From Vulcanimicrobiota bacterium (GTDB lineage Bacteria > Vulcanimicrobiota > Vulcanimicrobiia > Vulcanimicrobiales > Vulcanimicrobiaceae), in the NCBI GenBank assembly GCA_003140215.1, contig PLJL01000004.1, positions 528,193-592,192 of the forward strand: 64,000 nt of DNA. Direction: 5' to 3'. Positions 25,455 through 29,689 of this stretch are shown here, in pieces (position 1 is the first letter of the stretch; each line of letters starts with the position of its first letter). Below the pieces are notes generated by a model that saw only the letters and a program-made list of their open reading frames with translations, was not told the DNA's origin and did not search any database. The position numbers and the translations under genes are program-made.

Positions 25455-25568
25455 AGGCGCGCGCTCTCTTAGGCCGTTTCCTGGTATAAGGCGAGCAACC
25501 GGAACGAAACCGGCTCGGTGCGCGCGGCGTCGAAGACGATGTCACCGCCCGAACCCTTGGAGCGCCTC

Positions 25569-26354
25569 ATGCTCGCGACACCAGCCCTTCGTTACATCAC
25601 GGTCGAAGCCGTCGACGGCGTTGCGGTCGTCACGCTGAACCGGCCCGAAAAACGCAACGCGCTCTCGCTCGATGTCATGGGCGAGCTGATGGCCAGCTTC
25701 GAAGCGATCGGCGCCGACCGCACGCTCAAGGTCGTGATCCTGCGCGCGCTCGGGCCGGCCTTCAGCGCCGGGCACGATCTGCGCGAGATGCTCGATCGCA
25801 GCGTCGCCGAGTACCGCACGACCTTCGACGCGTGCGTGCGGCTGATGGAGACGATCCAGACGATCCCTCAGCCGGTGATCGCCGAGGTCGCCGGGGTCGC
25901 CACGGCCGCCGGCTGCCAGCTCGTCGCGACCTGCGATCTCGCGGTGGCGTCCGCCGCCGCGACGTTCGCCACGCCGGGAGTGAAGATCGGACTGTTCTGC
26001 ACCACGCCGATGGTCGCGTTGACCCGCGCGATCGGCCGCAAGCGCGCGATGGAAATGCTGCTCACCGGCACGCCGATCGACGCGGCGACGGCGGCCGACT
26101 GGGGCCTGGTGAACCGCGTCGTCGCGTCCGAGGATTTGGAGCGGACGGTGCGCGAGCTGGCCACCGGCATCGCGTCGGCGGCCGGGTTCGTCATCGGGCT
26201 CGGCAAGGCGGCCTTCTACGCGCAGATCGATCTCGATCAGCCCAAGGCATACGCCTATGCCAAGGAAGTCATGTCGATGAACGCGCTGGCCGAGGATGCG
26301 CAGGAAGGGATGGGCGCGTTCGTCTCCAAGCGCGCCCCGGCGTGGAGATCCTGA
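25569..26354 (+). CDS. Enoyl-CoA hydratase/isomerase-family protein, ECHDC3-like
   Basis: 261 residues from the ATG at 25569, with TTGGAG seven bases upstream. The crotonase fold signatures are present: NRPEKRNALSLDVMGEL, AFSAGHDLREM (oxyanion hole), and ATAAGCQLVATCDLAVAS. The segment GVKIGLFCTTPMVALTRAIGRKRAMEM and the ending QEGMGAFVSKRAPAW match the ECHDC3 subgroup. The position where canonical hydratases keep the catalytic Glu is occupied by other residues, so the reaction is uncertain and may not be hydration. It stands alone and is followed by a structured intergenic region. Confidence 0.8.
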   Translation: MLATPALRYITVEAVDGVAVVTLNRPEKRNALSLDVMGELMASFEAIGADRTLKVVILRALGPAFSAGHDLREMLDRSVAEYRTTFDACVRLMETIQTIPQPVIAEVAGVATAAGCQLVATCDLAVASAAATFATPGVKIGLFCTTPMVALTRAIGRKRAMEMLLTGTPIDAATAADWGLVNRVVASEDLERTVRELATGIASAAGFVIGLGKAAFYAQIDLDQPKAYAYAKEVMSMNALAEDAQEGMGAFVSKRAPAWRS

Positions 26355-26387: not shown

Positions 26388-26575
26388 GTTAAGCACTCTT
26401 AACGGTCGGGTAAGGCGACCGCAAGGAATCGCCGCCGCGGCTTCCAATGATGCGTCGTCAGGTGTGTGGGCCGCGTCTCCAACGGGGATGCTACGAATCG
26501 TCGCCCACACCCGGTAGTAGGGCAACCTGCTACGCGACGGCAGTAAGGCCCGCTTCACGGCGGGTCTTGCTGTTT
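26388..26575 (+). ncRNA. Candidate structured RNA in the leader of DUF5693
   Basis: The 240-base gap holds an unusual series of perfect or near-perfect hairpins, all in the plus sense. In order: GTTAAG/CTTAAC with a CACT loop (26388-26403); an eight-pair GTGTGGGC/GCCCACAC stem (26464-26471 with 26503-26510); an eight-pair stem closed by a GCAA tetraloop (26514-26533); and a terminator hairpin (26545-26568). A GNRA loop followed by a terminator suggests a regulatory leader or a small RNA. I found no match to the common riboswitch cores I know. Confidence 0.45.
26545..26568 (+). terminator. Terminator-like hairpin before DUF5693
   Basis: A nine-base-pair stem, AAGGCCCGC with GCGGGTCTT (one G-U pair), around TTCACG and followed by GCTGTTTG. 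It would end the transcript of the candidate RNA or of the upstream enoyl-CoA hydratase-like gene, 28 bases before the next gene. Confidence 0.6.
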
Positions 26576-26595: not shown

Positions 26596-28572
26596 GTGAC
26601 CTACCGCCGCCTCTTGCTGGCCGTCCTTGCGATCGGTCTGATCGCATCGTTGTATGTCGCCGCACGGCGCGAGCGGCACGAGCACCGGGCCAACCGGGTC
26701 GAGATCGTGATGGACGACGCCGACTTCGTGTCGCTCGCGCGTTCGTACGCCTACGACCAGCGGGCGTTTCTCGTCGCGCTACGGCAGGCCGGGCTGACCT
26801 CGCTCGCGGTCCAAGAAGAATTGGGCGGTCAGGTCGCGGTCTCGCCGAGCGCGGCGCTCTACGCCGGAACGGCCTTGCTGGCCCAAGCGCGGCTGACCGG
26901 GTTCCGCGATCCGGTCTTCGCGCGGCTCGCCGTGCACGGCATCCGCAGCGACGAAGTGTACCTCGTCGCCTACGACCGCGAGACCAGCTCGCGCTACGCC
27001 CGCCAGCTCGCGCTCAAGTTTTCGAAGCGCGCGGTGCGCGTGCTGCGCGCCGGCGTTCCGGCGGTGTACGCGATCCGCACGCAACCGGATTACTTCGCGA
27101 CCGTGGGGCTGGGTTTGCCGGGCGACCGCGTCGCGCTCGCGCACGAGCTCGGCCTCAAGCTCGTCCCGCGGCTGCAGAACGACGAACGCTTCAAGCCGCC
27201 GCAGATCGCCGCGCTGCTCGGCGACGCCGTCGAGCACCACGACGCGCACACGGTCGTGTTCTTCGGTCTGCGCAACCAGGTCGTCGGCTACCCCAACGCG
27301 ATCGACGCGACCGCCGCCGTCATGCACGCCGCCAAGCTCACCTTCGGAACCGTCGAGACCTACGACGTCAAGCAGAACCAAGCCGGCAGCGAGGCGCTGG
27401 CCAAGGATCTCCCCGACGCGACGGTGCGCGTCCAGGCGATCGCCAAGACCGAACAGGACAAGCTGCGTCCCGAAGAGATCGTGCAACGCTACGAGCTGGG
27501 CGTGCGCGAGCGCAACGTGCGCGTGGTCTATCTGCGGCCGTTCGCGCACCAGTGGGACGAGCGTTCGATCGAAGCGTCCAACGTCGAGATCGTCCGGCAG
27601 ATCGCCGCCGGCGTGCGCGCGGCGGGGCTGCGCGTCGGCCCTGCCTCGCCGTTCGAGCGCTTCGTCACCCGGCCGTGGGAGATCGCGCTCGCGTCGCTCG
27701 CCGTCCCGGCGATCCTGCTGTTGCTGTTGGCCGAGTTCGGCATCGGCGACCGGCGTTGGCTGATCGGGTTTGTCATCGTCGACGTCGCGCTGGTGTTGGC
27801 GGGTTTCGCGTTGCACCACGACATGGCGGTCCGCAAGGTCCTCGCCCTGGCCGGCGGGATCGCCTTTCCGGTGGCGGCGTTCGCGGCGATCGCCCCGGCG
27901 TTCGGCGCCGCGCGGGCGAGCTCGATGGGCGGGGCGATCCTCGACGGCGTTCGCGTCCTCGTCATCGCGACGTTGGTCACCCTGTGCGGTGCGCTCGTCG
28001 TGGTAGGGCTGCTGTCGACGCCGCTGACGATGACCGAGATCGACCGCTTCAGTGGCGTCAAACTAGTGTTGGCCGTGCCGCCGCTGGCGTGTCTGCTGCT
28101 GTACTTGTTCACGCCGCGCTGGGGCTCCAAGCTCACGCCCACGACGCTGAGCGAAGCGCCGGTGACGGTGCTGCAACTCGTCGCCGGGCTCGTCCTGCTG
28201 GCCGCGGGGTATCTCGTGCTGGCGCGCAGCGGCAACCAAAGCGATATCGCGCCGTCGACGTTGGAGCTCGCGCTGCGCTCGCATCTTAGCAGCATCTTGC
28301 AAGTGCGGCCGCGCTTCAAGGAGTTCGTCGTCGGCTTCCCCGCCTTGATGCTGCTGCCCGCGCTGGTCCCGGCCGATCGCGCGCGCTGGGGCTGGCTGTT
28401 CGCGCTGGCGATCGGCGTCGGCCTGGCCGACGTGGTCGACACGTTCTCGCACCTGCACACGCACCTCTCGGTCTCGGTGCTGCGGCTGATCAACGGCGCC
28501 GTGATCGGCGTGATCGTCGGTGCGATCGCGATCGTGGCGTACCGCCGCTTCCGCCGTGGCGAGCCCACGTGA
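26596..28572 (+). CDS. DUF5693 integral membrane protein
   Basis: 658 residues from a GTG. One N-terminal membrane anchor is followed by a large soluble domain (about 35-365) and then about eight membrane segments (about 370-650). The soluble part (QRAFLVALRQAGLTSLAVQEE) is typical of DUF5693 proteins, which in Firmicutes and Cyanobacteria are found beside csaB. Here too csaB follows, its start overlapping this stop by 17 bases. The context suggests a role in export, modification or attachment of pyruvylated cell-surface glycan; the biochemical role is not established. Confidence 0.82.
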   Translation: MTYRRLLLAVLAIGLIASLYVAARRERHEHRANRVEIVMDDADFVSLARSYAYDQRAFLVALRQAGLTSLAVQEELGGQVAVSPSAALYAGTALLAQARLTGFRDPVFARLAVHGIRSDEVYLVAYDRETSSRYARQLALKFSKRAVRVLRAGVPAVYAIRTQPDYFATVGLGLPGDRVALAHELGLKLVPRLQNDERFKPPQIAALLGDAVEHHDAHTVVFFGLRNQVVGYPNAIDATAAVMHAAKLTFGTVETYDVKQNQAGSEALAKDLPDATVRVQAIAKTEQDKLRPEEIVQRYELGVRERNVRVVYLRPFAHQWDERSIEASNVEIVRQIAAGVRAAGLRVGPASPFERFVTRPWEIALASLAVPAILLLLLAEFGIGDRRWLIGFVIVDVALVLAGFALHHDMAVRKVLALAGGIAFPVAAFAAIAPAFGAARASSMGGAILDGVRVLVIATLVTLCGALVVVGLLSTPLTMTEIDRFSGVKLVLAVPPLACLLLYLFTPRWGSKLTPTTLSEAPVTVLQLVAGLVLLAAGYLVLARSGNQSDIAPSTLELALRSHLSSILQVRPRFKEFVVGFPALMLLPALVPADRARWGWLFALAIGVGLADVVDTFSHLHTHLSVSVLRLINGAVIGVIVGAIAIVAYRRFRRGEPT

Positions 28573-29689
28573 CTTGCGGTTCTTGATCAGCGGCTACTAC
28601 GGCTTCGGAAATCTCGGTGACGAGGCGCTCTTGGAGGTGATCGTCGAGCGGCTGCGAGCTCGCTGGCCCGCCGCTGCGGTCGACGTGCTCAGCGCCGATC
28701 CGGCGGGGACTGCGCGCAGCTACGGGGTGGAAGCGACCCCGCGCATGGATCTCGGGCGCGTTCGCGCCGCGATCGGCCGCGCCGACGTCGTGCTCTCCGG
28801 CGGCGGCGGCCTGCTGCAGAACGTCACCAGTCTGGGGAGCCTGCTCTACTACGGCGGCGTGATCCGCTCGGCGATCCGCGCGAGAAAACCCACCATGGTC
28901 TTCGCGCAATCGATCGGTCCGCTCGACTTTTGGGGCCGCGCCGTGGTGCGCACGTTCTGCAAGGGGCTCAGCGCGGCGACGGTGCGCGACGAACGGTCGC
29001 GCGCGCTGCTCGGCGAGCTGCTTCCCGGGACACCGGTCGAGCGGACCGCCGATCCCGTCTTTCTCATCGACCCCGCGCCCGAACCGCTGGATCTAGCGAC
29101 CGAAGGTCTGGGCGATTCCGACGCGCCGCTGGTGGTCGTCGCGGTCCGCAAATGGCAGGGCGCCGAAACGACCGCGCGCACCCTGGCGGCGGTCGTCGAC
29201 CACCTGGCCGGCGTTTACGGGGCGCGCGTCGCCTTCCTTCCCTTCGGCGGCCCGCCCGACGCCGAGGTCGCCACCACGATCATCCGGCGCTGCGCCTCGA
29301 CGCCGGTGCTGCTGCCGGACTACCCGCTCGCGCAAGCGGCCCAGGTCGTCGCACGCGCCGCGCTGGTCGTCGGGATGCGGCTGCACGCGCTGGTCCTCGC
29401 CGCGCGATTGGGCGTCCCCTTCCTCGCCATTCCGTACGATCCTAAAGTCTCGGCGCTGCTCGAAGACTTGCGCTACCCCGCCGGTCCGCTGTTCGTTCCG
29501 GGCCAGCCGCCCCCGGCGGCCGACGCGTTGCTGGCGCGTGTCGACGATGCTTGGCGGCGCCGCGACGAGCTGGCCGCGCACTTGCGCAGCGTCCGCCCCG
29601 AAATCGAGCGGCTCGCCGAGCGCAACTTCGATGTGCTTGGCGAACTTGTGACACGCACGACACGCGAGGCGGCGGGAACCGAGGGCTGA
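28556..29689 (+). CDS. csaB: Polysaccharide pyruvyl transferase CsaB
   Basis: 377 residues from a GTG at 28556 inside the end of the DUF5693 gene. The opening ISGYYGFGNLGDEALLEVIV and the central VLSGGGGLLQNVTS are hallmarks of CsaB-type pyruvyl transferases, with GMRLHALVLAARLGVPFLAIPYDPK near the C-terminus holding conserved Arg and His. CsaB adds pyruvate from phosphoenolpyruvate to cell-wall polysaccharide, creating the ligand bound by SLH-domain surface proteins. Pairing with DUF5693 strengthens the call. No SLH protein is in the window. Confidence 0.9.
   Translation: MASPRDLRFLISGYYGFGNLGDEALLEVIVERLRARWPAAAVDVLSADPAGTARSYGVEATPRMDLGRVRAAIGRADVVLSGGGGLLQNVTSLGSLLYYGGVIRSAIRARKPTMVFAQSIGPLDFWGRAVVRTFCKGLSAATVRDERSRALLGELLPGTPVERTADPVFLIDPAPEPLDLATEGLGDSDAPLVVVAVRKWQGAETTARTLAAVVDHLAGVYGARVAFLPFGGPPDAEVATTIIRRCASTPVLLPDYPLAQAAQVVARAALVVGMRLHALVLAARLGVPFLAIPYDPKVSALLEDLRYPAGPLFVPGQPPPAADALLARVDDAWRRRDELAAHLRSVRPEIERLAERNFDVLGELVTRTTREAAGTEG

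Follow-up and report, generated by a model that had tools for sequence, protein, structure and literature searches.

We identified a family of structured RNAs whose member in the window, as we call the whole 64,000-nucleotide stretch of DNA analysed, lies between a gene of the enoyl-CoA hydratase/isomerase (ECH) family and a gene for a DUF5693 protein. Comparison of relatives brings out the family itself, its P3 and terminator helices, the co-occurrence of a GUGGG motif with the core and the arrangements of the loci, and on this basis the family almost certainly exists as a conserved structured RNA. We tentatively propose, at a probability of roughly 0.45, that it is a short RNA ended by a terminator and, at its main locus, also a gate for the DUF5693-csaB operon. 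Structured RNAs and terminated leaders are of a known kind; the family itself we could not find recorded, and its combination of features is unusual.

Structure and conservation of the RNA

The ECH gene, 5′ of the RNA, occupies positions 25518–26354 of the plus strand (Pfam PF00378, E = 1.7e-59). On the same strand follow the gene for the DUF5693 protein at 26596–28572 (PF18949, E = 5.2e-131), whose sole start candidate comes 18 nt after the end assigned to the terminal hairpin, and a gene for a polysaccharide pyruvyl transferase (CsaB-like) at 28520–29689 (PF04230, E = 3.8e-39). The DUF5693-csaB pair named in an earlier, sequence-only reading of this DNA is thus borne out by Pfam. CsaB-type enzymes are thought to produce a pyruvylated surface polymer. 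No tRNA or tmRNA was found in the whole window.

The interval examined by folding, 26388–26575, lies between the ECH and DUF5693 genes and has a folding energy of −95.6 kcal/mol, as against a mean of −72.3 for 200 dinucleotide shuffles (z = −5.29), none of which matched the native energy. The four stems noticed in the sequence-only reading are all present in the computed fold, with bounds refined by alignment: a dyad at 26388–26403, a stem region at 26404–26442, a composite helix at 26453–26539 and a terminal hairpin at 26541–26572; the stem said to be closed by a GCAA loop is the hairpin at 26514–26533 inside the composite helix. The RNA had been taken to begin at 26388. Its 3′ half, about 26466–26575, is indeed conserved, but the conserved core begins only at about 26453–26466, and the first two stems (26388–26442) probably lie outside the conserved RNA and resemble promoter or operator DNA.

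From 5′ to 3′, the core consists of GUGGG, a variable hairpin, helix P2, the bulge CCACACCCG, the P3 hairpin, which is closed by a GNRA loop, and lastly a terminator-like hairpin. In the window, all on the plus strand, these correspond to GUGGGC at 26466–26471, the proposed 5′ strand of a pseudoknot; a variable hairpin with linker at 26472–26498, in place of which other genera have a hairpin, P1, with GUGGG in its loop; the P2 5′ strand CGUCGC at 26499–26504 (helix 1 of the covariance model R1 described below); the nearly invariant 9-nt bulge at 26505–26513, whose CCAC could pair with GUGG; P3, GUAGUAGG-GCAA-CCUGCUAC, at 26514–26533; the P2 3′ strand GCGACG at 26534–26539, placed by the model-fitted alignment; and a terminator-like hairpin of 13 bp followed by UUU, at 26541–26575.

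Alignment of the same interval from relatives, the check suggested with the sequence-only reading, revealed strong compensatory change in P3 and the terminator helix. In a first alignment of 51 members, 98.4% of the cells pair, and both-sided changes number 155, compared with 36 in column shuffles. In a second, model-fitted alignment, which comprises 72 matches taken from 71 chosen loci (65 distinct rows) and is fitted to the structure itself, 99.4% of the cells are paired, with 214 both-sided changes against 40 in column shuffles, and the covariation signal is lost when the partner is slid by 1–3 columns. Taken separately in these 65 rows, P3 has 99.4% of its cells paired and both-sided changes in six of its eight pairs, and the terminator-like hairpin has 99.6% paired and both-sided changes in 12 of 13 pairs.

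P2 behaves differently: two of its six pairs show one-sided change and one pair shows both-sided change among the 65 distinct rows. This near-absence of covariation arises partly because most members were gathered via an exact 18-mer, which fixes the bulge along with the P2 5′ strand and thereby accounts for part of the invariance of both segments. The copies found by the model, with no exact pattern (L139–L144), retain GCCCACACCCG, and in two of them (L141 and L142) P3 has diverged with compensation (GGUAAAC...GUUUACC); the bulge is altered in the diverged L147 and L148. In the source species, the unconstrained minimum free energy structure combines an upstream CGUC strand with a nested GUGGGC:GCCCAC helix, and forcing P2 on a shorter stretch yields −61.2 rather than −70.8 kcal/mol, a penalty of 9.6 kcal/mol in which the pseudoknot contact is uncounted. 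Because of this cost, P2 is a family-level proposal, and the nested fold may be the resting state in the source species.

In 16 of the 63 distinct loci, including those of genera g44, g9 and g12 (by coordinates shared with model hits), the GNRA loop of P3 is swapped for a longer element around CCCGACAAAAAGGG. The element takes the form CCC-GACAAAAA-GGG with an A-rich loop (L026, L032, L059, L071, L082 and 11 other loci), and 13 of these 16 long-P3 loci are also without a clear U-run past the last hairpin.

Upstream of the core, GTGGG followed by C or T is located 18–55 nt away in all 59 distinct main-locus members, compared with 3.1 in shuffles. GUGGG would be able to pair with CCCAC of the bulge across P2, forming a possible pseudoknot, a contact that covariation cannot test because GUGGG varies too little. 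CCCAC is also kept where GUGGG is missing from its expected place, namely in L061 (two copies), L070 (the record of L146) and L140, which points to another constraint on the bulge. When P1 was tested by constrained folding against shuffled flanks, 48 of 50 sequences from genera other than the window's, three orphan copies among them, had GUGGG inside a hairpin apical loop, where the shuffles gave 32.6; the mean z was −1.29, and 15 of the 50 reached p ≤ 0.05. Within the window's genus, GUGGG is loop-enclosed in 4 of 12 sequences (7.4 in shuffles). Here a second, genus-specific 5′ strand, CGUCGUC at 26453–26459 of the plus strand, could replace 26499–26504 against GCGACG: CGTC or TGTCG occurs no more than 22 nt upstream of GTGGG in 11 of the 12 genus sequences, compared with 1.4 expected, and in 6 of 42 sequences of other genera, where 6.0 are expected and there is no trend.

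Distribution and relation to known RNAs

A search with the DNA as query matched 21 of 60 genomes (own genome counted), chiefly over 26496–26575. Scanning a collection of species genomes for the exact core 18-mer returned 76 stretches. The remaining core, judged by a pattern for P2 and P3, is held by 54 of these, all with titles naming Eremiobacterota, Eremiobacteria, WPS-2 or only “bacterium”; one (L055) is cut by a contig end, and none of the other 21, titled as other phyla, passes the P2/P3 pattern. The family's phylum is represented in the collection scanned almost only by metagenome-assembled genomes. The covariance model R1 (84 positions, 27 pairs), run with stricter filters on 149 Eremiobacterota genomes, matched 72 at E ≤ 2.1e-8, of which 71 belong to the window's family and the remaining one, G039, to another family of the same order; the genome of the source species holds one strong copy. 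The best match in any remaining genome has E = 0.001, and at E ≤ 1 matches extend to 98 of the 149 genomes, most of those beyond the strong 72 presumably being due to chance. The diverged L147 and L148 match at E = 1.1e-5 and 1.7e-4, too far removed for their context to be read. Several genera of the window's family are without a strong R1 match although DUF5693 is present, and 22 of 23 genomes picked for having no strong main-locus copy still encode DUF5693.

The sequence-only reading had found no match to common riboswitch cores, and Rfam offers no family either. Rfam 15 returned no match at the gathering cut-off in the whole window, and between 26300 and 26650 at E ≤ 10 the only hit was Ms_AS-1 on the minus strand, with 13.3 bits against 37. 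In 16 relative loci searched at E ≤ 1, nothing fell at the RNA save a weak match to SraL/RyjA (sraL, RF01408) in L020 alone (24.9 bits, cut-off 39, E = 0.15); as it lies below the cut-off and occurs in 1 of 16 loci, we take it as chance and reject this identity. Like the family described here, 6S RNA (RF00013) and small SRP RNA (RF00169) are small structured bacterial RNAs, and both were rejected as candidates. 6S RNA has no match in the window, and the single match that it has in the source genome at E ≤ 1 lies elsewhere (C4:37255-37439, E = 0.37, below cut-off); the source genome's small SRP RNA, over the cut-off, is at C4:2109297-2109395 and not at the RNA, and SRP RNA is over the cut-off, away from the RNA, in all 11 genomes tested. 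Separately, full-length 6S matches below the cut-off were obtained in 8 of 11 Eremiobacterota genomes (L180–L187, E = 1.2e-5 to 0.37), the best reaching 36.3 bits against a cut-off of 46.4 (matches include G085:C7:1357182-1357367 and G000:C4:37255-37439); these are perhaps divergent 6S RNAs of Eremiobacterota.

The raiA-motif RNA (ModT) is described as a structured noncoding RNA of bacteria (PMC11706538). Rfam gives no match to the raiA-motif at the RNA studied here. The two RNAs differ in structure. A pseudoknot beside a terminator is a common riboswitch layout, and as a kind, pseudoknot riboswitches with intrinsic terminators share with the present family a compact core, a near-invariant unpaired segment and a terminator-like hairpin before an operon. 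In contrast to them, this family matches no Rfam class and has free-standing copies without a downstream gene. A description of the family was not found in the part of the open-licence literature covered. The window's element has no blastn match in phage and plasmid collections, and 78 viral contigs with the exact 15-mer gave no strong model match (best two, E = 0.0042 and 0.0088). These negatives speak against an origin from mobile elements, though L061 shows local duplication.

Genomic context and candidate functions

Conservation of the interval upstream of DUF5693, on which the leader idea of the sequence-only reading turned, is evident for the 3′ half of the RNA: DUF5693 is close downstream (projected start ≤ 400 nt) in 55 of the 63 distinct loci and distant in one (L009); it was not found despite room in three (L061 twice, L070) and is not visible for want of sequence in four (L012, L023, L036, L037). 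ECH is close upstream, likewise in 55 of 63, not near in seven, and one locus has too little sequence. The pairing of RNA and DUF5693 is kept where a different gene precedes the RNA, as with the ADH gene of L017, the GGDEF/HD gene of L022/L045 (same core) and L051, and, in L031, what resembles by eye an ABC-type permease gene of a transporter operon. The GAF-GGDEF-HD genes between ECH and the RNA are at L045:4812-7100 and L051:3434-5533. In L037/L154, a same-strand alpha/beta hydrolase gene is inserted.

With the hairpin end placed by a fixed offset, which makes spacings accurate to within a few bases, and starts treated as candidates, a start candidate lies 17–21 nt past the hairpin in 26 of the 56 loci with DUF5693 (18 nt in the source species). 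The first candidate is within 21 nt in 31 of the 56 loci, at 22–60 nt in 19 and beyond 60 nt in six. A hairpin-to-start distance of 18–20 nt leaves no room for a promoter, and the operon of the source species would therefore be fed by the read-through fraction; the same is predicted for about half of the loci. The terminator-like character ascribed to the last stem survives in part: it is a covarying hairpin, but its U-tract is weak here (UUUGUG), and a simple terminator scan flagged no terminator at the source-species hairpin. Across the 63 distinct loci, a run of at least four T follows the hairpin in 38, that is, in 35 of 47 with a short P3 and 3 of 16 with a long one.

That DUF5693 starts so soon after the RNA in many loci, and that the two stay together where the upstream gene differs, would both be expected of a purely cis-acting, riboswitch- or protein-gated attenuator of DUF5693-csaB, in which GUGGG would pair either with CCCAC, letting the terminator form, or with CYCGC of the terminator 5′ arm as an antiterminator. 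Also in line with such an attenuator are the pseudoknot-plus-terminator layout common in riboswitches and the two 5′ strands that compete for GCGACG in the window's genus. However, no Rfam class matches, and the orphan copies and G129, described below, do not fit an element acting only in cis. The complementarity to CYCGC is unspecific, being present in 10 of 12 of the family's own hairpins caught by the scan but also in 9 of 20 other terminator-like hairpins (some of these 20 are model-hit copies), and because CYCGC is so common there we dropped the GUGGG:CYCGC antiterminator as evidence. We consider a purely cis-acting element unlikely, and favour a terminated RNA with a gating role in addition.

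Upstream of the RNA, promoter-like sites were found. The dyad GTTAAG-CACT-CTTAAC (26388–26403, no strand assigned) is probably operator or promoter DNA and not part of the RNA. GTTAAG-N4-CTTAAC has a best match with 0–3 mismatches of 12 in all 12 same-genus sequences, followed after 19–20 bases by AAGGAT (0–2 mismatches in the 12); the gap from AAGGAT to TCCAAT is 14–15 (0–1 mismatch) in nine of the 12, and this second element is only weak in L007, L008 and L023. The corresponding genus-conserved elements of the window, AAGGAAT ... TTCCAAT, span 26423–26448 on the plus strand in the same-genus comparison. These motifs, chosen by eye and without a chance control, perhaps represent an alternative-sigma promoter with an activator site. 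In a sigma-70-type scan, scores beat shuffles at p ≤ 0.05 in 12 of 68 sequences (3.4 expected) and at p ≤ 0.1 in 18 of 68 (6.8 expected), but no sequence of the window's genus reached p ≤ 0.05. Some of the top-scoring sites, spread over several genera, end about 50–63 nt before the core; promoter-like examples are TTGACG-17-TATTCT in L013 and TTGAAA-18-TAGAAT in L142, the sole orphan scoring above shuffles, which carries a terminator-like sequence as well.

Nine strong copies lie off the main locus: L139–L144, L061 twice and L146, the sole copy of G039. No credible same-strand gene follows within about 1 kb in six of the nine (L139, L140, L142, L143 and both copies of L061), a judgement on reading frames in which we disregarded those overlapping the RNA (L139, L140) and short ones lying antisense to a longer frame (L061). 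Opposite-strand genes confirmed by Pfam encode a TonB receptor (L139), a catalase (L140) and an alpha/beta hydrolase (L142); the L143 frame and one tested L061 frame have no Pfam family. In L144, a CarboxypepD_reg protein is encoded 440 nt downstream, and in L141 another at 679 nt, preceded by a small frame of uncertain reality; L146 has small frames only nearby. In G129 (L036/L153), what comes after the RNA is an alpha/beta hydrolase gene on the opposite strand, then a further frame and, about 2 kb away, DUF5693 (by eye), and the model finds no second copy of the RNA in this 90% complete genome. From the gene-less copies it would seem that the RNA product has importance of its own, unless they are remnants, against which their paired, partly compensated helices argue. 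The choice between a leader and an independent small RNA, left open in the sequence-only reading, thus divides: nearness to DUF5693 favours the leader, and copies without a downstream gene favour the small RNA.

In L061:235-7848, two core copies without GUGGG each stand directly behind a related small protein gene, with two resolvase-like genes nearby (one Pfam-confirmed), an arrangement that resembles a duplicated cassette. Such copies, along with those behind unrelated genes, would suit a terminator module that is conserved but has no regulatory role, and that duplication or mobile elements have spread. Yet the core with its invariant bulge exceeds the needs of termination, GUGGG accompanies it in 59 of 59 distinct main-locus members, and the blastn searches of phages and plasmids and the model search of the 78 viral contigs speak against such spread, which makes this explanation highly improbable.

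A purely trans-acting role has more in its favour. The RNA would then be a small RNA gene that occupies the gap between ECH and DUF5693 by chance, with DUF5693 expressed via incidental read-through or, gap permitting, from its own promoter. The orphans, one of them (L142) with a good promoter-like site, and G129, where the one copy detected faces an opposite-strand gene, are consistent with this. Moreover, L159, L167, L168, L169 and L174 have DUF5693 a short way after ECH and lack the RNA, and the operon can therefore dispense with it. However, the RNA stays with DUF5693 where the preceding gene is not ECH, and in 26 of 56 loci the start codon lies too near the hairpin for the operon to be transcribed other than by read-through. 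We hold a role in trans alone to be unlikely, though slightly less so than a purely cis-acting element.

Conclusions

The reading that we prefer is of a short RNA, ended by a terminator, with the additional role of gating DUF5693-csaB at the main locus. Transcription, termination, the pseudoknot itself, a partner and both functions, as we infer them, would fit together as follows. A promoter between ECH and the core would start a transcript of roughly 110–150 nt, the 5′ part of which would present GUGGG, and CCAC of the P2/bulge/P3 core would pair with GUGG. Most transcripts would stop at the terminator hairpin, near 26575, and form a discrete small RNA. With about 20 nt between this hairpin and DUF5693-csaB at the main locus, the read-through fraction would set expression of this cell-surface operon, and a partner (protein, metabolite or target RNA) recognising the CCACACCCG bulge could shift this fraction. 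The role of the free-standing copies would be one in trans: they could be regulators, or decoys for this partner. Several observations count against this reading: sigma-70-type scores beat shuffles in only 12 of 68 sequences and in none of the window's genus; the U-run is present in only 38 of 63 loci, and the terminator scan flags none here; about half of the loci leave at least 22 nt before the start, a few of them enough for a promoter; P2 nearly lacks covariation and, in the source species, costs 9.6 kcal/mol to form; CCCAC is kept in some copies that have no GUGGG in its expected place; and strong matches are missing from several genera of the family that have DUF5693, which in five loci closely follows ECH. 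A bolder version, which we regard as speculative and on balance improbable, is that the family represents a new class of RNA that senses a ligand or a protein, so far confined to one uncultured lineage, in which a pseudoknotted sensor would serve as the gate of DUF5693-csaB and free-standing decoys would titrate the same partner.

To conclude, this work adds an RNA family that is well supported and matches nothing in the curated library, upstream of an operon whose first gene belongs to a family of unknown function. Leader-like and free-standing copies together make a direct test of dual cis and trans use possible. If the read-through model is true, the partner or ligand would provide a handle on how this lineage controls its pyruvylated surface polymer.
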